A stretch of 35,289 bases of DNA from a virus. The stretch spans positions 1-35,289 of the IMG/VR virus record IMGVR_UViG_3300042567_002487; one strand, written 5' to 3'. The notes under the pieces are model-generated. The model saw only the letters and a program-made list of their open reading frames with translations. It did not search any database and had not been told where the DNA came from. This document shows positions 10,296 through 34,451 of this stretch, piece after piece (the first letter of the stretch is position 1; the number at the start of each line of letters is the position of its first letter). A program made the position numbers and the translations under genes.

Positions 10296-11291
10296 ATGAC
10301 AACGACAGCAACAACTTATGATGTTATGGGAGCAGGGATCACTGAGCTTCTCATGACAGCAGCGGCTCAGGCATTCTCCCCTGACGCAGCACATGAACTA
10401 GATAAGAAGATCCTTGACGCCGGAAGAGCCGCTAGCAGAACAGCAGCAGTAAAGAAGAAAGTCAAGATGGTCTCAACAGATTCACTCGAAGGAGAAACAA
10501 AGTACTCACGCCCTAATGGCGAAGACTACTACACCCGAGCATGGGGCGAGCACAATGACGTGCAAGTTCTGCGTAAGGCGCGTGAAGGTTCACAGTACGC
10601 ACTCCTCTACGGAGCACCTGGTTGTGGAAAGACTGCACTCATTGAAGCAGCGTTCCACACTGAAGCTGGCGGAATACAAACAGTGCTCGGCTCAGGTGAC
10701 ACTGAAGTGTCCGACTTAGTTGGCGGATATGTTCAGACACCAAGTGGTGGCTTCGTCTGGGAAGATGGCCCATTGCTCAAAGCAGCAGAGTCAGGCGGCG
10801 TGTTGCTGATCGACGAAGTCGGATTGATTGATCCTAAAGTTCTTTCAATCATCTACGGCTTGATGGATGGACGCCGTGAGTACACAGTCACAGCAAACCC
10901 AGAACGCGGAACTGTCAAGGCAAAGCCTGGCTTCTACGTAGTCGCAGCGACAAACCCCAATGCACCTGGAGTTCGTCTCTCTGAAGCTCTTCTTTCACGA
11001 TTCACTGTTCACGCAGAGATGACAACTGACTGGGGTCTTGCTCGCAAGCTCGGTTGCCCAACTCCAATTGTGACAGCAGCGCAGAACCTGAGCAAGAAGC
11101 AGCAGTCAAACGAAGTGTCATGGGCTCCGCAGATGCGCGAACTCCTGGCATTCAGAGAACTGTCTAAGACATTCGGTAGCAAGTTCGCGATCTCGAACTT
11201 ATTGGCCGCGGCTCCCGAGATTGATCGCCCAGTTGTGGCGGATGTCTTGACCCGAGTCTTCGGTGAAGAGTGCCGACCAGCCAAGATCTAG
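10296..11291 (+). CDS. MoxR-type AAA+ ATPase
   Basis: A 331-residue protein. Walker A GAPGCGKT is at 106-113, Walker B LLIDEVG at 170-176, sensor-1 AATN at 217-220 and the arginine finger in LLSRF at 235. The helix-2-type insert VGGYVQTPSGGFVWEDGPL is typical of MoxR/CbbQ ATPases, which act as chaperone-like remodellers paired with a VWA protein. Such a partner follows at 11388, each gene with its own promoter. Homologous pairs occur in other actinophages; their target is unsettled. Confidence 0.9.
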   Translation: MTTTATTYDVMGAGITELLMTAAAQAFSPDAAHELDKKILDAGRAASRTAAVKKKVKMVSTDSLEGETKYSRPNGEDYYTRAWGEHNDVQVLRKAREGSQYALLYGAPGCGKTALIEAAFHTEAGGIQTVLGSGDTEVSDLVGGYVQTPSGGFVWEDGPLLKAAESGGVLLIDEVGLIDPKVLSIIYGLMDGRREYTVTANPERGTVKAKPGFYVVAATNPNAPGVRLSEALLSRFTVHAEMTTDWGLARKLGCPTPIVTAAQNLSKKQQSNEVSWAPQMRELLAFRELSKTFGSKFAISNLLAAAPEIDRPVVADVLTRVFGEECRPAKI

Positions 11292-11296
11292 GTCTT

Positions 11297-11333
11297 CAGC
11301 GGCTGGCTCCTGTAGGTGGGAGCCGGCCAGCTG
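11297..11333 (+). terminator. Intrinsic terminator after the AAA+ gene
   Basis: CAGCGGCTGGCTCC pairs with GGAGCCGGCCAGCTG (one bulge, one wobble) around 8 bases and is followed by ATTTTCT. Confidence 0.7.
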
Positions 11334-11337
11334 ATTT

Positions 11338-11354
11338 TCTAAAGTTGGTATAAT
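11338..11354 (+). promoter_or_regulatory. Promoter element copy 12 (AAAGT class)
   Basis: TCTAAAG-TTGG-TATAAT; the leader holds two AAGGACAAA-type ribosome sites in tandem. Confidence 0.85.
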
Positions 11355-11387
11355 GATCTATACAAGGACAAACCTAAAGGACAAAAC

Positions 11388-13196
11388 ATGGGACATCTAA
11401 AATACGACAAAAAGACTCGCGCAGAGTCCACGCCAGTTGAGTGGCTTGGCATCGGAGCTGCAGTCGGAGAGCTCGCTAACAAGTGGGCAGATCGCCACGA
11501 CCTCGTGGGATACGTAGGACCTGGTGCCGGCGGAGTTGCTCCAGCGTGCTACACTCCAGCAACTGCTGAAGTTGAAGTCAATGTTGAAGTTGCCTTCGGC
11601 GGCAATATCTCTCCCGAGACAATCGGCGACTTGCGAGTTCGCTCAAACCAATTCGAGTGGCCAAAAGCTACAGGCGCAATCTTTCACGAAGCGCTTCACG
11701 CTCGCTTCTCTAACTGGGATATCGAAGCCGCGTTCAATGCGTTGTCGCCGGCTGAATTCAAAGCTCTTATCTATCTTGAAGAAGGACGCATCGAATACAA
11801 TGGCGTGACTATCATGCCAGAGAACAGAGCGTTTCTTCGCGCAAGCGCGCTCGAGATTGTAGTTGCTGATCTTAAAGAAGAAGCAATCAAAGAAAGCGAC
11901 ACACGAGTTGCTGCAGCTATTGCTGCTCTCACAATGGCACGAGTCTCTGCGGGTGTTCTTCAAGACGAAGACATTGAAGCAATCACTCCACTCATTGAGT
12001 CTAAGCTCGGCGCAGCGACACTTGCAAAGCTTCGCGAGATCTGGATTGCGGCGCAGGACCACAACAATCATCTTGACGCAACAGCAATGTATCCGCTTGC
12101 ACGCAAGTGGGTTGAGATTGTTAACGAGCAAGCAGAAGAGAATGGCGAGCCTGATCCAGGCGAAGGCACTCCTGATGAGAATGGCGCTGAAGGTTCCGGC
12201 GGAATCATGGGCGAGATGCTCGAGGCACTCGAAGAAGCAGCAGGCACTGCAGCAATCAATGCTAGCGGAGATCTTGATGATCAACAGACCACTGAAGAGT
12301 GGAGTGAGATCGCGAAGGAACGCGGCAGTTCAGCGAAGACTCAGAAGGAACACGAGAGTGTTGCGAATGAAGTCTTTGGCCAGGGCACCGGTCCAATGGC
12401 CGATGGCAAGAGCAGCAGCCGACTCATTGAAGAGCGTACTCCGTCTGCGGAAGAACGAGCAGCGGCTGTCACAGTCGCACGACTTCTCGAGAAGGCAAAG
12501 TATCGCGAGCGCGATGTTGTTGAGATTGCATCAATCGTTCCTCCCGGACGCCTTCGCACTCGTGCAATGGTTCAAGGTGCGGCACTCAAGAGCAAGGGCA
12601 TCATGACTCAAGTTGAGCCATGGCGTCGCTCAGTGCGCAAGCACACTGACGAGCCAACGCTTAACATTGGCGTGATGGTTGACATCAGCGGTTCAATGAG
12701 TGAAGCGATGAACCCGATGGCAGTTACTGCTTGGGTGATGAGCGAAGCAGCACGCCGAATACAAGCACGCGCAGCGATGGTGTACTACGGCGAAGGTGTC
12801 TTCCCAACTCTGAAGCCCGGTCAGCACCTTGACAAAGTCAACGTGTACACCGCGTCTGATGGGACTGAGAAGTTTGACAAAGCGTTCAAGGCATTGAATG
12901 GTTCGCTCAACTTGTTGAATGGCTCAGGAGCTCGCATGCTGGTAGTTGTAAGTGATGGTTGCTACACAGAGCAAGAACTACAAGCAGCACGCCGCTGGGT
13001 GAATGAGTGCGACAAAGCTGGTGTCGGAGTTCTTTGGCTTCCGTTTGATAGTCGCGGCGGTATGTACGCGTCAGCAATCTGCAAAGGTTCATCAGCGGTT
13101 GTTCTAAAGGGAGTTCGTGACCCGGCTGCAGTGGCCACTGAGATCGGCGCTGCTGCGGCGAAAGCAATGACCACGGTATCCAGCAAGGCTGCCTAA
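11388..13196 (+). CDS. VWA-domain protein with HExxH motif (MoxR partner)
   Basis: A 602-residue protein. N-terminal AIFHEALHARFS holds an HExxH zinc-peptidase motif at residues 100-104, with YLEEGRIE (129-136) as a candidate third ligand. A Glu/Gly-rich linker near 245-275 is followed by a C-terminal VWA domain: MIDAS D-I-S-G-S at 432-436 and SDG at 522-524. The layout resembles the CobT-like VWA proteins that work with MoxR or CobS ATPases, plus an added metallopeptidase-like domain. Coupled unfolding or cleavage of a host or virion protein is an inference. Confidence 0.85.
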   Translation: MGHLKYDKKTRAESTPVEWLGIGAAVGELANKWADRHDLVGYVGPGAGGVAPACYTPATAEVEVNVEVAFGGNISPETIGDLRVRSNQFEWPKATGAIFHEALHARFSNWDIEAAFNALSPAEFKALIYLEEGRIEYNGVTIMPENRAFLRASALEIVVADLKEEAIKESDTRVAAAIAALTMARVSAGVLQDEDIEAITPLIESKLGAATLAKLREIWIAAQDHNNHLDATAMYPLARKWVEIVNEQAEENGEPDPGEGTPDENGAEGSGGIMGEMLEALEEAAGTAAINASGDLDDQQTTEEWSEIAKERGSSAKTQKEHESVANEVFGQGTGPMADGKSSSRLIEERTPSAEERAAAVTVARLLEKAKYRERDVVEIASIVPPGRLRTRAMVQGAALKSKGIMTQVEPWRRSVRKHTDEPTLNIGVMVDISGSMSEAMNPMAVTAWVMSEAARRIQARAAMVYYGEGVFPTLKPGQHLDKVNVYTASDGTEKFDKAFKALNGSLNLLNGSGARMLVVVSDGCYTEQELQAARRWVNECDKAGVGVLWLPFDSRGGMYASAICKGSSAVVLKGVRDPAAVATEIGAAAAKAMTTVSSKAA

Positions 13197-17747: not shown

Positions 17748-17764
17748 AACAGCGCGCATTAGAA

Positions 17765-17781
17765 TCTAAAGTTGTTATAAT
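17765..17781 (+). promoter_or_regulatory. Promoter element copy 24 (AAAGT class)
   Basis: TCTAAAG-TTGT-TATAAT. The ATG at 17788 follows after 6 bases: leaderless. Confidence 0.85.
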
Positions 17782-17787
17782 GTATTT

Positions 17788-17940
17788 ATGGAACAAACAG
17801 AGATAGAAATAATGGCAGCTGAATTCGTAGAAATTATCGAGGGTTCGGGTGAAAGTGCGAGTGCAGTAATGGCTCGTATGCAGTTGCTGATTGATATGAT
17901 CAATAAGTGGCGTCGTGAGAACGGGGTTAGAGAAATCTAA
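17788..17940 (+). CDS. 50-residue helical leaderless protein
   Basis: It begins 6 bases after the -10 box and is predicted to be nearly all helical. An acidic N-terminal half is followed by a basic KWRREN tail. It is followed at 24 bases by the next ATG with ribosome site AAAAGGAAAA. Confidence 0.65.
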   Translation: MEQTEIEIMAAEFVEIIEGSGESASAVMARMQLLIDMINKWRRENGVREI

Positions 17941-25081: not shown

Positions 25082-25140
25082 TCTTTAACGGTCGAGTAAC
25101 GCCGTAAAACCTCATCGCGCTGGGCGGTGTCAAAGTTACT

Positions 25141-26577: not shown

Positions 26578-28005
26578 ATGGGTAAAAGTCTTGCACAGGT
26601 CATCGCGGAGATGCCAGAGGATGAACGCAACGCAGTGCTTGCGGGTGTCGATATGGATGCGCTTGCTTGGGACTGGAAGTTCTGGGCACGCCCTGAACAA
26701 CTTCCTCCTGCTAATGATGACTGGGCAATTTGGATGTACCTTGCGGGTCGAGGTGCAGGCAAGACTCGAAGCGCTGCTGAGTGGGTGAGAGACAAAGCCA
26801 AAGACACTTCGCATGGTCAATTGCGCTTTGCTCTTGTTGCACGTACTGCGGCTGACGTTCGTGACGTTATTGTTGAAGGCGAGTCAGGCATCATCTCTGT
26901 TTCACCACCGAGTGAGCGGCCACTCTATGAGCCATCAAAGCGACGACTGACTTGGCCGAACGGCAACACAGCAACATGCTTCACTGCTGATGAGCCTGAT
27001 GGGCTTCGAGGCCCGCAGTTCACTCACGCTTGGGCAGACGAGATTGCTGCGTGGCGTCAATCACCTGACGCTGCGGGTATGACATCATGGGACAACTTAC
27101 GTGTCGCAACTCGTCTCGGAAACAATCCTCAGATTATCTGCACAACAACTCCAAAGCGTGTGCCGGTTCTCTACAACTTAATCAATGAGTCAGTGAAGAC
27201 TGGGCGTGTGATCATCTCTCGTGGATCAACACTTGACAACTCAGGTAACCTGTCAGAGACTTATCTTGACGCGATCACTGGTGTGTATGCGGGAACACGT
27301 TTGGCTGCACAGGAACTCTACGGTGAGATGCTGAGTGATGTTGAAGGTGCTCTGTGGACAATTGAATCCATTGACGCAGGACGACAAACAGTGATGCCAC
27401 ATGGTGTGTCACTTCGTTGTATTGGTGTTGACCCGTCTGTTGCTGAGCGACCAGGAGATGAGTGCGGCATTGTTGTATGTGCATCTTCAGGTGAACGAGA
27501 TCTCTACAAACGACAAGCATGGATTCTCGAAGACGCGTCGATTCTTGGCTCACCTGAAGTGTGGGCTAATACGGTTGTTGCAATGGCGCGTAAGTGGGGA
27601 TGTCCGGTTGTGTGTGAAGTGAACCAAGGCGGTGCTCTTGTGCGCAACGCGATCAACACAATTGATCCTTCAGTGAAGGTGCTAGAGGTTCACTCAAAGT
27701 ACGGCAAAGCTTTGCGGGCAGAGCCAATCTCAATGGCGTACGATCAGGGTCGTGTTCATCACATCAACTACTTACCTGATCTCGAGTCGCAGATGTGTTC
27801 ATGGATTCCTGGTGAAGGCAAGTCTCCGGACCGTGTTGACGCGATGGTGCATGCGCTTACGGCTCTTATGATCAAGCCACCTGAAGGATTCACTGGCGGT
27901 ACAATCACAGCGAAGTCGCCTGCGGCTAGAAGACTTCCGGCATTTCGCGGTGGCAATAGCGGCACAGGTAAAAGCAGTGGCGCACGATTGTTCTTACCAA
28001 AGTGA
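26578..28005 (+). CDS. terL: Terminase large subunit
   Basis: A 475-residue protein. Walker A GRGAGKT at 57-63; FTHAWADEIAAW supplies Walker B with its catalytic Glu; a C-terminal RNase-H-like nuclease opens with GVDPSVAERPGDECG (first Asp 285) and keeps later acidic residues (RVDAMVHAL). It is the ATP-driven motor that packages DNA into the prohead and cuts it. It starts the morphogenesis block. Confidence 0.93.
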   Translation: MGKSLAQVIAEMPEDERNAVLAGVDMDALAWDWKFWARPEQLPPANDDWAIWMYLAGRGAGKTRSAAEWVRDKAKDTSHGQLRFALVARTAADVRDVIVEGESGIISVSPPSERPLYEPSKRRLTWPNGNTATCFTADEPDGLRGPQFTHAWADEIAAWRQSPDAAGMTSWDNLRVATRLGNNPQIICTTTPKRVPVLYNLINESVKTGRVIISRGSTLDNSGNLSETYLDAITGVYAGTRLAAQELYGEMLSDVEGALWTIESIDAGRQTVMPHGVSLRCIGVDPSVAERPGDECGIVVCASSGERDLYKRQAWILEDASILGSPEVWANTVVAMARKWGCPVVCEVNQGGALVRNAINTIDPSVKVLEVHSKYGKALRAEPISMAYDQGRVHHINYLPDLESQMCSWIPGEGKSPDRVDAMVHALTALMIKPPEGFTGGTITAKSPAARRLPAFRGGNSGTGKSSGARLFLPK

Positions 28006-28053: not shown

Positions 28054-28482
28054 ATGAACACAGAGCACACACCAGAAGATATCAATGCGGCAACAGAAAT
28101 TGAAGCCCCTGCTGAAGAAGTAGTGACACAGGAAGTAGTTGCTGAAGTCATTGCTGAAGTAATTGCTGAAGTAGTACCAGTGCGTGCGGAGCGCAGTGCG
28201 GTTGTTAGTGGTGCGGATAAAGATGAAGTGCTCTTATCTGCATGTGTGTACCGAAACTCATACGCACGTAAGTCACTCTCTGTTCATCATCTGCAGCGTC
28301 GCCTTGCGGTGCTCGGGTATCACAATGCTGATGCAGATAAAGATGGCTGGTACGGAGATCTCACGCTTGGTGCGGTTGCTGAATTTCAAGCAGACAAGAA
28401 TCTCAAGGGTGCGGGTTACATGAATGCGGAGACTCTTGAAGCGATCTTTGCGGGTGACCCATATTGCACTGTAGTTCTCTGA
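28054..28482 (+). CDS. Peptidoglycan-binding-domain protein with acidic repeat
   Basis: A 142-residue protein. Residues 18-45 hold tandem VAEVI-type acidic repeats. The C-terminal 78-137 is a PG_binding_1 domain (LSVHHLQRRLAVLGY, GWYGDLTLGAVAEFQ). There is no catalytic domain and no signal peptide. It may be a virion or lysis accessory protein that grips the cell wall. Confidence 0.8.
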   Translation: MNTEHTPEDINAATEIEAPAEEVVTQEVVAEVIAEVIAEVVPVRAERSAVVSGADKDEVLLSACVYRNSYARKSLSVHHLQRRLAVLGYHNADADKDGWYGDLTLGAVAEFQADKNLKGAGYMNAETLEAIFAGDPYCTVVL

Positions 28483-28528
28483 ACACACTGCACTCGTACT
28501 TCAACAAATATCTTCCGAAAAAGCTAAA

Positions 28529-28556
28529 GCACATTTGCTACCTGAGTAGCATGTGC
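28529..28556 (+). terminator. Hairpin after the peptidoglycan-binding gene
   Basis: GCACAT/ATGTGC outside and GCTAC-CTGA-GTAGC inside; 11 bp with a TT bulge. Confidence 0.6.
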
Positions 28557-28939
28557 CTTCCTGCATATTTATTATGCACTATGCCAGACACACACACGCA
28601 TAGCAATTGTGTATGTCACTGAGCACATACCCAGAAGCTCCTGGAGAGCACCAGCGTACTAAAGTGTACAACTATTCACTGCCAGCGCACTGACGCAGAA
28701 AACGCACGCTCACTATCACTAAGTGCCTACACACTGCGCACGCATTGAGTACACGTCGTGCACACATCAAGTACATGTTAATCACACACAGCTTCACACC
28801 TAGAACAACAACACACACTCACACGCTCAAGCACGCACATCGAGCTCTCAAAAGCTCTCTCGCACACGCACAAGTGCTCAATGAATACACGCACATCGCA
28901 TAGCTCCTGCGCCTTCTTTGTCACACAGAGAGAGACGTT

Positions 28940-29001
28940 GTTACTCGTCGGTAACTTGATTGGTTACCCGGCGGTAACTTTTTTTGTTACTCACTGGTAA
29001 C
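28940..29001. repeat. Three GTTAC-N6-GTAAC dyads at 23-base period
   Basis: Units at 28940-28955, 28963-28978 and 28986-29001. Each reads GTTAC, six variable bases, GTAAC, and starts exactly 23 bases after the one before. A T-run (28979-28985) separates units 2 and 3. Typical of a cooperative dimer-binding array. Confidence 0.75.
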
Positions 29002-29200
29002 TAGTGGAAACACTTCGCAAAAAGTGCTCTACTAACAACCTCCTTCTTGCGGGTCAAATCCACTAGTCATAATGTACTATTCCCCCGATTCTGTACAGAA
29101 CACAAGAAGCTCTAAACCTTAAGGTACAACAACTTCCTCTTTGTACAATAATGTTCAGGCGTCCTTCTCGTACATGCACGCGAGGTGCCGTACTTTATGA

Positions 29201-29206
29201 TACAGT
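29201..29206 (+). promoter_or_regulatory. -10 box TACAGT, leaderless start
   Basis: TACAGT is followed by 6 bases and then the GTG at 29213. No CTAAAG element. Confidence 0.4.
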
Positions 29207-29212
29207 GTCAGA

Positions 29213-29317
29213 GTGAAAGTAGCTCAAGTTCTTCCTCAGTCAGAACGCGAGTTTCTCGCCGTCCTTAAGGATGATGAATTAAAAAGACAAGTCAAGTCTT
29301 ACAAGCGTGTACCGTGA
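29213..29317 (+). CDS. 34-residue basic peptide upstream of glycosyltransferase
   Basis: A GTG start 6 bases after TACAGT, and a GTGA overlap with the glycosyltransferase. A charged helix (VLPQSEREFLAVLKDDELKRQVKSY) with a basic end. Probably a coupled leader gene. Confidence 0.5.
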   Translation: MKVAQVLPQSEREFLAVLKDDELKRQVKSYKRVP

Positions 29318-30309
29318 GCAGTAGCAATATACCGCGTAACGGCAAGATTTTTGTTGGGGTGCCGGCGTATGATGAGCCGTTCCTTGAGGCTACCGTAGAA
29401 GATGCGTATGAGAAGGCTGATGACCCTGCCCGTGTTTTCTTTGGGATCCACAATCAAAAGAGCGCGCCCAACAAGTTTGAGGATCTTTCAAGGTTCAAAA
29501 ATGTGCGCGTCACTAGCGCCGTATATCATCTTCCGCCAGGCGTCAGTATTAGCCGCTTAAATGCATCTCTTCTTCACGAAAATGAAGAGTACTACATGCA
29601 GATAGATGCGCACAACTTCTTTGTACCAGGCTGGGACACTATTATGCGTGATGACTACGACTTGCTCGCGTCTCACGTTGAAAAGCCAGTAATAGCGACA
29701 TCGCAGTACTGGCACGAACTTCATGCGTATGAGCCAGGCAATACGCACAGACTGTCATTCTATCTTGTCGACGATCGCAACAATTACACAGCTGGTATGC
29801 CGTTTACTGTAAATGATAACGGTGATGCGGTGCACGACGATTCAAGAGCATCTGAGCCGCGATTCCTTGACAAGTTCCAAGAGCACTACACTATGAACGC
29901 TAGTGCGGGAGTTTTTACGTCGAGCAGTATCATCTACGACGTGTCGTATGAGCCATTTACGATGTACCTTCCAGAGCAAGAGTTATTCGCGCTACGTGCA
30001 TACACACGTGGATACAGATTCTTTAGCAGTGACACGGCTGTAACTTCGACTCTTTCAAAGAATCTACCTAACGGTGATTTCCAGTCTGACGTATTTCCGA
30101 CAAGTCTTCAAGCGCGCCTTACCTCACATGTGCATGACAGTAAAGAGCGCTGGAAAAGCAACCTCTCTTTTGAGTATCTGCGTGGCGAAAGATTTGGTTT
30201 TGCCGGGGCCCCTAATAAAGAACTGTACGAAAAATACGTAAAAGACTCTGGGATTGACTTTAGGCGTTATAAAAAAATTGAACCTCCAGGCCCTGAAATT
30301 GTACATTAG
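29314..30309 (+). CDS. GlcNAc-type glycosyltransferase (PF11397-like)
   Basis: A 331-residue protein, GTG start in GTGA overlap. FVGVPAYDEPFLEATVEDA with FFGIHNQ is the N-terminal Rossmann half, and YYMQIDAHNFFVPGWD holds the DAH-type metal site that stands in for DXD in this family. Family members add N-acetylglucosamine. Target could be virion protein, teichoic acid or DNA. It stands between the gene-free region and the portal block. Confidence 0.8.
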   Translation: MSSSNIPRNGKIFVGVPAYDEPFLEATVEDAYEKADDPARVFFGIHNQKSAPNKFEDLSRFKNVRVTSAVYHLPPGVSISRLNASLLHENEEYYMQIDAHNFFVPGWDTIMRDDYDLLASHVEKPVIATSQYWHELHAYEPGNTHRLSFYLVDDRNNYTAGMPFTVNDNGDAVHDDSRASEPRFLDKFQEHYTMNASAGVFTSSSIIYDVSYEPFTMYLPEQELFALRAYTRGYRFFSSDTAVTSTLSKNLPNGDFQSDVFPTSLQARLTSHVHDSKERWKSNLSFEYLRGERFGFAGAPNKELYEKYVKDSGIDFRRYKKIEPPGPEIVH

Positions 30310-30325: not shown

Positions 30326-30880
30326 GTGTCAAAAATAAAGCAAGTAATACCTCCTGAGGAGCGGCTTTTTCTGCAAGAGCTGTCTAAGCTAGATTGCATG
30401 TCTCGTGTACAGCAGTTACATCAGGCAGGCTGGACCCTCGCGGCAATCGGGAACGCGTTCAATCCGCCAAAGCAGCGCTCAACTATACATTCATGGGTAA
30501 CAGCCCCGCCCCGAACAAACACCCTCCCTCCTCCTCCCCCTCCTTCTTTTTCCTCTTCCTCTTCCTCCTCTTCTTCTTCTTCTATACACTTACCTACGGC
30601 TGAAAATTCAGACCAGACCAAAACCCAGGCTCGGGCGTATAGAATGTATGATACAGAAGCACCTGTTCTTTCAAAGACTGTTCATAACCGCATTGCAAAG
30701 ATCGCACCAATTGCACGGCGATATAGAGCAAAGGCCAACCCCAATGGCATATATAAAGAAGCAAACGACGAACTCACCAGTATAGCTAAAGAGCAATATG
30801 CTAAAGGCGTTTCAATTCGAGAACTATGCCTAGCCGCTGGTGTCACATATAGAGCTATGGCTCGCCGCCTGGGAAGATAG
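30326..30880 (+). CDS. Two-HTH protein with Pro/Ser linker
   Basis: A 184-residue protein. N-terminal HTH (LHQAGWTLAAIGNAF, residues 31-45), a linker of poly-Pro then a dozen Ser (about 66-88), and a C-terminal HTH (GVSIRELCLAAGVTYRAMARRLG, 160-183). The linker is coded by a 62-base all-pyrimidine tract. Between terminase and portal this could be the small terminase (DNA recognition) or a late regulator. Confidence 0.65.
   Translation: MSKIKQVIPPEERLFLQELSKLDCMSRVQQLHQAGWTLAAIGNAFNPPKQRSTIHSWVTAPPRTNTLPPPPPPSFSSSSSSSSSSSIHLPTAENSDQTKTQARAYRMYDTEAPVLSKTVHNRIAKIAPIARRYRAKANPNGIYKEANDELTSIAKEQYAKGVSIRELCLAAGVTYRAMARRLGR
30522..30583 (+). repeat. 62-base uninterrupted pyrimidine tract
   Basis: Only C and T from 30522 to 30583, encoding Pro and Ser. 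It could form triplex DNA and vary by slippage. Confidence 0.8.
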
Positions 30881-31611: not shown

Positions 31612-33312
31612 GTGGGCGTTTTCCGCCGAGAGCCAACAGGAAGAACTACTCCGAAGAGCAGACCAGCGTCTGCATTGGATAGCGTTATCTTTCCTAGCAA
31701 CTACAACACTGCTCAGTCGTTGCCGTACTCTGCGCCCCGTGGACTTACAGCTGCCGCCGTTCAAGTACGCTTGAATGATAAAGGCGAAGCTGACCAATTC
31801 AAAGCACGCCGTACTGCAAGCTCTAGTGCTTGGCAAGGTGAAGCCTGGGAATACTATGACGCTATTGGCGAAGTTAAGTACGCATTTAACTTAGTCGCAT
31901 CTGTTGTTTCTCGTATTCGTCTTTATGCTGCTGTTGTTGACAACCCTGCTGAAACACCAGTAGCTGTTCGCAATACAGACAGCATTGACCAGCGTTTAGC
32001 AAGCGCCGCTGAGCGTGCACTTGCGAGATTAGATTCTGCCTATGGCGGCCAAGCAGGAATGCTTCGCGACGCGGCGCTGAACATCAGCGTCTCTGGCGAA
32101 TGCTACTTAGTGCAGATGCCAGCACGACCTGGATCTGGAATTCAAGAGTCATGGGATATTCGTTCTACAGACGAAGTGCAGATTGACCAAAAAGGTAACT
32201 ACACAATTGCTGGTCGTCGCGACCTTGCTGGACCTGAAGGTGCACGAAGCGGTAAGGGAATTCTTTCTCTTCCAGGGAATGCATTCGTTGGTCGCATCTG
32301 GCGCGCACACCCAAGATTTTCAGATGAAGCTGATTCGTCACTTCGTGGATTGCTCGACCTATGTGCCGAGCTTCTCCTTCTGAATCGCACATTCCGTGCG
32401 ACGGCGCGTTCCCGCTTGAACGCTGGTGCGCTCTATCTTCCTGACGGTCTATCAGTTGCAGCTTCAGCTGATCCTGATTATCCATACGATGAATCGTCTG
32501 ACTTAAATCCTGGACTTACTCCAGAAGAAGCAGCAGATGAATTCGAAGATCAACTCATTGATGCAATGACTACTCCTATTCGTGACGAAGACTCTGCATC
32601 AGCAGTTGTTCCTTTGATCATTCGTGGACCTGCAGAACTTGGTGACAAGATCAAGCAGTTCAAGTTCGAGCGTTCATTTGACCCTGCACTTGCACAACGT
32701 GCTGACCGTGTTCTTGAGAGAATTCTTCAAGGTCTCGATGTTCCAAAAGACATCGTCACAGGTCTTGCGAATGTTAAGTACTCAAATGCATTGCAGATTG
32801 ACGAATCACTCTACAAGGCGCATATTGAACCATTGATGCTTCTTATTGCAGACGCACTCACGGTTGTCTATTTGCGCCCTTACTTGATTGCAAACGGATT
32901 TACTGCAACTGACGTTGAGCGTTTGGTTATCTGGTACGATCCAAGTCAAGTTGCAACACGTAATGACAGAGCTGCAGATGCTGACTCTGGTTTCGACCGC
33001 ATGGCAGTTTCATTTGATACATGGCGCCGTGCTCATGGATTTAACGAACACGATGCACCAACACCAAACGAAATCGCTTTGCGACTTATGTTTGAAAAGG
33101 GTGTCATCTCGCCAGAGCTTACGGAGTCTATGTTGAAGTTGATTGCACCAGATGTAATTAACGGAGCAACACAAGCTCAGCAAGCGACTAGCGTTGCACC
33201 AATTCCACCAGAGGTTCAACAAATTCTTAAGAATGCGCAAGGCGGCGTAGGTGCACCACCTGCTCCCGCAGAGCCAGAAGCCAGCGCGCCTACAGATACA
33301 GAGGAGCAGTAA
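31612..33312 (+). CDS. Portal protein
   Basis: A 566-residue protein, GTG start after GAGGAGAAATA. The signature block near residues 374-405 (GLDVPKDIVTGLANVKYSNALQ ... HIEPLMLLIADALT) is the portal crown/clip segment seen in many actinophages. The C-terminal 30 residues are Pro/Ala/Glu-rich. It forms the dodecameric DNA entry ring. It ends overlapping the Dps-like gene's ATG by one base. Confidence 0.9.
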   Translation: MGVFRREPTGRTTPKSRPASALDSVIFPSNYNTAQSLPYSAPRGLTAAAVQVRLNDKGEADQFKARRTASSSAWQGEAWEYYDAIGEVKYAFNLVASVVSRIRLYAAVVDNPAETPVAVRNTDSIDQRLASAAERALARLDSAYGGQAGMLRDAALNISVSGECYLVQMPARPGSGIQESWDIRSTDEVQIDQKGNYTIAGRRDLAGPEGARSGKGILSLPGNAFVGRIWRAHPRFSDEADSSLRGLLDLCAELLLLNRTFRATARSRLNAGALYLPDGLSVAASADPDYPYDESSDLNPGLTPEEAADEFEDQLIDAMTTPIRDEDSASAVVPLIIRGPAELGDKIKQFKFERSFDPALAQRADRVLERILQGLDVPKDIVTGLANVKYSNALQIDESLYKAHIEPLMLLIADALTVVYLRPYLIANGFTATDVERLVIWYDPSQVATRNDRAADADSGFDRMAVSFDTWRRAHGFNEHDAPTPNEIALRLMFEKGVISPELTESMLKLIAPDVINGATQAQQATSVAPIPPEVQQILKNAQGGVGAPPAPAEPEASAPTDTEEQ

Positions 33313-34451
33313 TGCAGACTAATAGCCAACTAAATCAAGCAGGCGGAGAAAATCCACTTGAAGCAGCTCTTCTGCAGTCGTTCTCAGACGTGTTTACTAT
33401 GTACTATCGCACTCATGCGTTTCATTGGAATGTAAAAGGTCCAGAGTTCTCGCAGTTCCATGATTTCTTTCAAACAATCTATGAAGATGTTTATGGCTCA
33501 ATTGATCCACTAGCAGAGAGCATTCGTAAGGTTGCTTGCGATGTTCCTTCAGCACTTAACGATATTTGCGGTATGTCACGAGTAAACGTGTCAGACGTAA
33601 CAAGCTCCAATCCAATGGATATGACAGCGTCTCTTCGTGACGCTAACGAAGTAGTTATGTCTTCGCTTAATGTAGCGTTCTCAGTTGCTGTAGCAGTCAA
33701 CGAGCAAGGTATTGCAGACTTCATTGCTGGACGACTTGATGCTCATAAAAAATGGGCATGGCAGTTGTCAACAACTCTTGGCGCTGATGATAAGCCAAAA
33801 ATTGAAACATCGAGTGTAACTCGCGTTGAGCGCACTATGCCTATCGAAGTAGAAATGTATCAAGCAGATGACATGGACGAAGATATGAACGAGCCACGCA
33901 TGATGCAGTTTAGTGACGCAACAGAGTCAACACTTAGTAGCAAAGTAGACGAGCACAATAATGTTGCACCAAATGGTCGCAAAGCATCTGTTGACATGCT
34001 CAAGGCTGTATACCGTCGGGGCGCTAGTTCATTTTCTAACTTAAACAATCCGCAGTACGCGTCTCGCGATGAGTGGGCGCTGTCTCGCGTTAATTCGTAT
34101 TTACGTTTGCTAAGAACGGGCGCACCTGTAAGTCTTAGCTATACTCAAGATAACGACTTACTCCCAAGCGGACATCCTAAGGCGATAAAAGAAGCAGCAA
34201 TGACTGCCTCTGCAGTTATCGCCTCTGAGCTTAGTTTGACATTGAAAGAAGAATATGAATACTCGTCTCCAGAACATGCAATCGTTTCGTTTGCAGAATT
34301 TTCTGGTCTCGGGTACGAGTCGGTTCCAGTTTTTAGAGCAGCATGGAAACGTGCTGTTGTTGATAACGAGAATCCATTTGCTAGAGCAAAAGATCTAGCA
34401 ATAAAAATGTACTCAAGCAAAGACGCTGACCTGTTGCCAAAAAAGAAATAG
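33312..34451 (+). CDS. Dps/ferritin-like fusion protein
   Basis: A 379-residue protein. Residues 17-155 are a Dps-type four-helix bundle: HWNVKGPEFSQFHDFF puts His38 and His50 at the exact 12-residue spacing of the Dps ferroxidase centre, and Asp65 and Glu69 fall where the second pair of ligands belongs; the usual Asp at position 54 is Gln. After an acidic linker, 210-375 is a second domain with MLKAVYRRG, RVNSYLRLLRTG, DNDLLPSGHP, RAAWKRA. Part of it recurs in the next gene. Its place between portal and a structural gene suggests a virion or DNA-protecting role. Confidence 0.8.
   Translation: MQTNSQLNQAGGENPLEAALLQSFSDVFTMYYRTHAFHWNVKGPEFSQFHDFFQTIYEDVYGSIDPLAESIRKVACDVPSALNDICGMSRVNVSDVTSSNPMDMTASLRDANEVVMSSLNVAFSVAVAVNEQGIADFIAGRLDAHKKWAWQLSTTLGADDKPKIETSSVTRVERTMPIEVEMYQADDMDEDMNEPRMMQFSDATESTLSSKVDEHNNVAPNGRKASVDMLKAVYRRGASSFSNLNNPQYASRDEWALSRVNSYLRLLRTGAPVSLSYTQDNDLLPSGHPKAIKEAAMTASAVIASELSLTLKEEYEYSSPEHAIVSFAEFSGLGYESVPVFRAAWKRAVVDNENPFARAKDLAIKMYSSKDADLLPKKK

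Follow-up and report, generated by a model that had tools for sequence, protein, structure and literature searches.

A recurrent inverted-repeat motif, probably an operator, in the putative packaging and structural promoter region of environmental actinophages

The window, that is, the whole stretch of DNA analyzed here, is a viral sequence record 35,289 bp long and probably a fragment. Its source is an actinophage, a virus of freshwater actinobacteria, and its portal protein is 79% identical to that of the lake phage DSL-LC01 and 65% identical to that of Microbacterium phage Pumpernickel. Elsewhere in the window (10296-13196), a gene for an AAA_5 (dynein-related AAA) ATPase is followed by one for a VWA-domain-like protein, a pair that we take to resemble MoxR/VWA pairs. 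The host of DSL-LC01 is predicted to belong to Actinomycetia in the relevant passage of PMC10611076. The locus studied in this work comprises the following features.

26578..28005, + strand: terminase large subunit (terL)
28054..28482, + strand: peptidoglycan-binding domain protein
28483..29212: gene-free region, with a C/A-rich, fast evolving upstream half and a conserved downstream half
28940..28955, strand not applicable: dyad unit 1, GTTACTCGTCGGTAAC
28963..28978, strand not applicable: dyad unit 2, GTTACCCGGCGGTAAC, with perfect 6-bp arms
28986..29001, strand not applicable: dyad unit 3, GTTACTCACTGGTAAC
28940..28985, + strand: units 1 and 2, able to form one long RNA hairpin, then seven T; terminator-like, in this species only
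29042..29081, + strand: conserved promoter-like block 1, CTTGCGGGTCAAAT...TCATAATGTACTA
29116..29164, + strand: conserved block 2, CCTTAAGGTACA...TTTGTACAATAATGTTCAGGCGTCC
29213..29317, + strand: 34-codon ORF, similar by eye to the N-terminal end of the two-HTH protein
29314..30309, + strand: glycosyltransferase gene, between the promoter-like block and the two-HTH gene
30326..30880, + strand: two-HTH DNA-binding protein, possibly a small terminase subunit
31612..33312, + strand: portal protein
33312..34451, + strand: protein with a Dps/ferritin-like N-terminal domain, directly after the portal gene

Two HTH domains on a flexible linker are predicted for the two-HTH protein. Since it lacks PDB matches with an E value of 0.001 or lower and has only two weak viral matches, which are unnamed or uncharacterized, we call it two-HTH rather than TerS. 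Its gene is regarded here as the ancestral first gene behind the putative promoter. The glycosyltransferase gene appears to have entered the two-HTH gene at its start, with a 34-codon N-terminal remnant left behind that overlaps the glycosyltransferase start by 4 bp (GTGA). Among the fetched loci, the glycosyltransferase gene was found only in the same species, its sister genome and three further loci (L016, L272 and L273).

Three GTTAC-N6-GTAAC dyads with starts at 28940, 28963 and 28986, 23 bp apart, had been reported in a preliminary description of this DNA as lying in a gene-free stretch 5' of the glycosyltransferase and portal genes. All three were recovered at these positions, and the region 28483-29212 was confirmed to be free of genes; it has no nucleotide similarity to the phage collection searched. 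The three units are the only exact matches to GTTAC-N6-GTAAC in the window. The array is real and non-random: triples of equally spaced dyads (5-bp arms, spacer of 0-10, period of at most 60) occurred in none of 200 dinucleotide-preserving shuffles of the window. With two mismatches allowed, the whole window yielded 11 matches against 10.96 expected, with no excess, so the signal resides in the exact cluster and not in a window-wide motif. One of the two-mismatch dyads, TTAACGGTCGAGTAAC at 25085-25100, lies just past an ORF stop and about 1.5 kb from terL, approximately the distance seen for exact dyads in L137, L152 and L170; the other two-mismatch matches of the window are at chance level. 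Within the array the symmetry extends one base inward as Y/R, giving GTTACY-N4-RGTAAC. Degenerate neighbors such as TTACTAGTCAGTAA in L229 and L260 suggest a dyad core of TTACYNNNNRGTAA.

Contigs of the same species carry an identical array with the 23-bp spacing kept. In the sister genome (L008) a single substitution falls within the 62-bp array core (C to T at 28968, in unit 2), none in the next 61 bp and four in the 146-bp promoter-like block, while the 100 bp adjoining the array upstream contain 12 substitutions and the DNA farther out is unalignable. The array therefore travels with the conserved downstream block. This block lies ~65 bp downstream of the array, has the consensus CTTGCAGGTCAAxxTCAxTxxCATAATGTACTA followed by GTAC elements and TTCAGGCGTCC, and is common to relatives with and without dyads. 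The consensus scan found no sigma-70-type promoter. In DSL-LC01 the promoter motif TCATAAAGTACTA is present in exactly two copies: the copy before the two-HTH gene has no dyads, and the other occupies a 780-bp divergent intergenic region, where a dyad precedes it by 33 bp. The DSL-LC01 cluster (L358:1961-2097, record ~17760-17896) contains one exact and two degenerate dyads. In another phage group a TGATATAAT promoter is evident, and a dyad overlaps its -35 region.

Among 64 non-redundant two-HTH upstream regions, 10 contain GTTACYN4RGTAAC, with a total of 18 occurrences, compared with none for the reversed pattern and a shuffle mean of zero. Scattered relatives carry one to three copies, located ahead of the two-HTH gene at distances of 131-478 bp, and most relatives have none. 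The positive regions were not all obtained independently of the motif: five (L201, L217, L228, L229 and L260) were retrieved with it, two (L188 and L193) entered when records selected on other grounds were searched for dyads, and the window itself accounts for one, so the blind count amounts to 2 of 56 regions (L090 and L341). Thirty related records yielded 20 exact GTTAC-N6-GTAAC sites versus one for the reversed control, and 18 of the 20 carry Y/R at the next position, for which the search did not ask. The 23 records picked regardless of the dyad contain seven sites against one control, a modest excess; two of the seven are 440-480 bp upstream of the two-HTH gene. On these counts, we consider the motif real but patchy. 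Three Rhodococcus plasmids (2.12 Mb) yielded one site with a control of zero, and the motif is not enriched in them. The literature search with spelled-out motif variants found no paper naming it.

The geometry of the sites is fixed. All 18 dyads in the 64 regions have the same arms, inverted orientation and 6-bp spacer; among the GTxAC-N6-GTyAC matches every one is GTTAC...GTAAC, the other 15 combinations being absent, and one extra GTTAC/GTAAC pair occurs at a spacer of 15. Since this inverted, spacer-6 form is the only one represented, the dyad is best described as a symmetric site and not as a direct repeat. Several genomes of 100-170 kb have most or all of their sites in one intergenic cluster. 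Tandem GTTACY dyads precede a tyrosine-recombinase-like (integrase) ORF by 26-27 bp at L249:5848-7197 and likewise in L251 and L256, the identity of the ORF being judged from sequence, and tandem GTTACY dyads lie ~500-615 bp upstream of a terminase-like ORF (terL) in L200, L230, L214 and L232, members of another phage group. Palindromes resembling GTTGAA..TTCAAC are found near the arrays in L200, L214 and L247, with a partial one in L232. A divergent ORF lies 34-46 bp from the array in L188, L228 and L244 and may be the true regulated gene there.

The 23-bp phasing, on which the preliminary description had placed much weight, is preserved in same-species contigs and in the sister, but relatives have one to three copies, and in the multi-copy ones the dyads of a pair are 31-39 bp apart. 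When viral contigs were scanned for tandem pairs, 69 stretches were obtained with spacings from 16 to 45 bp, of which 31-33 bp is the commonest (40 of 106 spacings, duplicates included); the seven 23-bp cases come from the species of the window, the sister genome and a single unrelated record. The array had been expected to persist with its phasing in close relatives, and at a wider range this expectation failed: a relative with the glycosyltransferase insertion (94% identical) has no array. The phasing thus appears, from these comparisons, to be a lineage detail and the least conserved part of the array. The preliminary description equated the period with about two helical turns; at 10.5 bp per turn, 23 bp correspond to ~2.2 turns and not to exactly two.

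We conclude that the dyads are probably operator sites for a sequence-specific, symmetric-dimer protein at a putative packaging and structural promoter module. This reading rests on the fixed arms, orientation and spacer, the recurrence of the motif upstream of a homologous gene and its conservation alongside the promoter-like block in the sister genome. Of the original proposal of a dimeric-protein operator, the symmetric-dimer sites in a promoter region survive as the best interpretation, and the exact phasing no longer serves as support. A symmetric dimer would recognize the half-site GTTACY, with the two half-sites one helical turn apart across the 6-bp spacer. The array would form the upstream edge of a conserved promoter module for a packaging and structural operon, which originally would have comprised the two-HTH gene followed by the portal and Dps-like genes, the glycosyltransferase gene having been inserted in front later. 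Adjacent dimers probably assist each other's binding, and bound dimers would tune the putative promoter ~65 bp downstream by activation or repression. A dyad over the -35 region of the TGATATAAT promoter, as in the other phage group, would suit repression, and the placement ~65 bp upstream in the window would suit activation or looping. The Pfam scan of 30 window proteins gave an HTH match in the two-HTH protein alone, below the cut-off. Of 17 records scanned, none had a TetR_N match over the cut-off and two had an HTH_3 match over it (G001, with iron boxes, and G030, with the array); no candidate binder was found in these scans. Recurring at one functional position in environmental actinophages, this operator-like motif points to late-gene control in phages with little known regulation.

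Two related phages have DtxR/IdeR iron boxes, two each, ahead of their two-HTH gene at the spot equivalent to the array (L076/L080 in record G018 and L084 in record G001), and no iron box with up to two mismatches was found elsewhere in the 30 related records. The published consensus is TTAGGTTAGSCTAACCTAA, as given in the relevant passages of PMC8464063 and PMC1382209.

G018:45077-45095 and 45162-45180: iron boxes L346 and L348, both exact matches
G001:34213-34231 and 34297-34315: iron boxes L347 and L349, one an exact match when W positions are allowed, the other with a single mismatch

Both phages have the Dps-like gene right after the portal gene, and for Corynebacterium glutamicum the cited literature describes a positive action of DtxR on dps and ftn. 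The link between iron boxes and Dps is only suggestive, since phages lacking iron boxes have the Dps-like gene too (it is present at 79 of 124 eligible portal loci, a count that includes many redundant ones) and no Dps-like match was found downstream of the portal in the dyad-bearing L217, L228 and L244. Tentatively, and with more doubt than confidence, we propose that in this large group of actinophages the putative promoter of the packaging operon may act as a socket in which operators of host-type metabolic regulators are exchanged, occupied by perfect iron boxes in two relatives, by GTTACY-N4-RGTAAC, the dyad of another regulator, in this phage and others, and by nothing in many. If so, the phage would time packaging and structural gene expression, including that of the Dps/ferritin-like gene where present, by the iron or nutrient state of the host. 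The presence of iron boxes at the same position in relatives makes host-regulator timing of packaging directly testable.

Units 1 and 2 could alternatively act at the RNA level, as a hairpin followed by seven U that would serve as an intrinsic terminator for the terL and peptidoglycan-binding transcripts before the next promoter, and this we consider unlikely. A terminator-like match lies at 28962-28979 with a T run, and a folding energy of -25.6 kcal/mol (z of -3.5) was obtained for the 76-nt stretch, with none of 200 shuffles equally stable; however, tandem dyads fold in this manner on either strand, the minus strand giving a z of -4.7. A GC-rich hairpin with a T run can be formed by units 1 and 2 in this species only and is missing in most relatives; of the 18 dyads in the two-HTH upstream regions, only 3 are followed by at least five T within eight bases, and the long hairpin is out of reach for relatives that have one dyad only. 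The upstream gene of L090 is directly followed by a hairpin with a T run that, as read in the sequence, is separate from the dyad, while unit 3 of the window is left unexplained by termination. A reading of the dyads as RNA through U-G wobble at position 6/11 was rejected because C..A and T..G are about equal (33 vs 31 over 170 distinct sites, in a count that is not normalized to the direction of transcription and draws in part on sites retrieved by the Y/R pattern) and because the T runs are not shared. In this species, a terminator role of units 1 and 2 may coexist with the operator role.

It is also rather improbable that the array is a cosB- or pac-like packaging site recognized by the terminase or the two-HTH protein. 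Cos and pac sites are usually located near such terminase genes, and the array indeed lies between terL and the two-HTH gene, whose product is predicted to have two flexibly linked HTH domains; the tandem dyads ahead of terL in the four loci mentioned above fit as well. On the other hand, the two-HTH protein is kept in dyad-free relatives (61-64% identical in L272, which has no dyad), two relatives have iron boxes at this spot instead, and in other phages the same dyad stands before the integrase-like gene.

The proposal of replication-origin iterons, raised in the preliminary description, has become very hard to maintain. Tandem regular repeats in a gene-free region and a weak maximum of the cumulative GC skew near 28 kb are what it could draw on, but the units are palindromic dyads and not directional iterons, most relatives have none and others may keep a single copy, no replication initiator was found among the 30 window proteins scanned, and the position is that of a putative terminase/portal promoter. 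The skew maximum lends no support to an origin, as all larger genes keep one direction to either side of it and the skew is displaced by the C-rich noncoding stretch itself.

Least probable of all is a host GlnR or MtrA box, GTnAC-n6-GTnAC in direct repeat, with its 5+6+5 layout: the unit fits the S. venezuelae GlnR box exactly as published in the relevant passage of PMC10704036, and MtrA binds similar sites according to that of PMC13189361, but this candidate was rejected on geometry, since the sites are exclusively inverted with a spacer of 6 bp, GTnAC-N6-GAAAC is absent from the 64 regions and the next base is Y/R symmetric, a test somewhat weakened by half of the array loci having been fetched with the palindrome.

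The operator reading can be placed among known systems. While GlnR and MtrA boxes share the 5+6+5 layout, the dyads of the window are strictly inverted, with inner Y/R symmetry and without direct-repeat variants. DtxR/IdeR iron boxes have a different sequence, and the array is not an iron box. The R sites of lambda cosB are several 16-bp sites adjoining the terminase genes and in this respect resemble the array, which also consists of multiple 16-bp sites beside terminase genes; in contrast to cosB, window-type dyads are not conserved with the gene for the DNA-binding protein and are also found before unrelated genes. Dimers of the TetR or lambda repressor type bind tandem dyad operators. Window-type arrays differ from these in that their spacing varies between relatives, and they share with the tandem dyad operators of dimeric repressors the short inverted repeats, the tandem arrangement, the location in what is a putative promoter region here, and the half-sites one turn apart.
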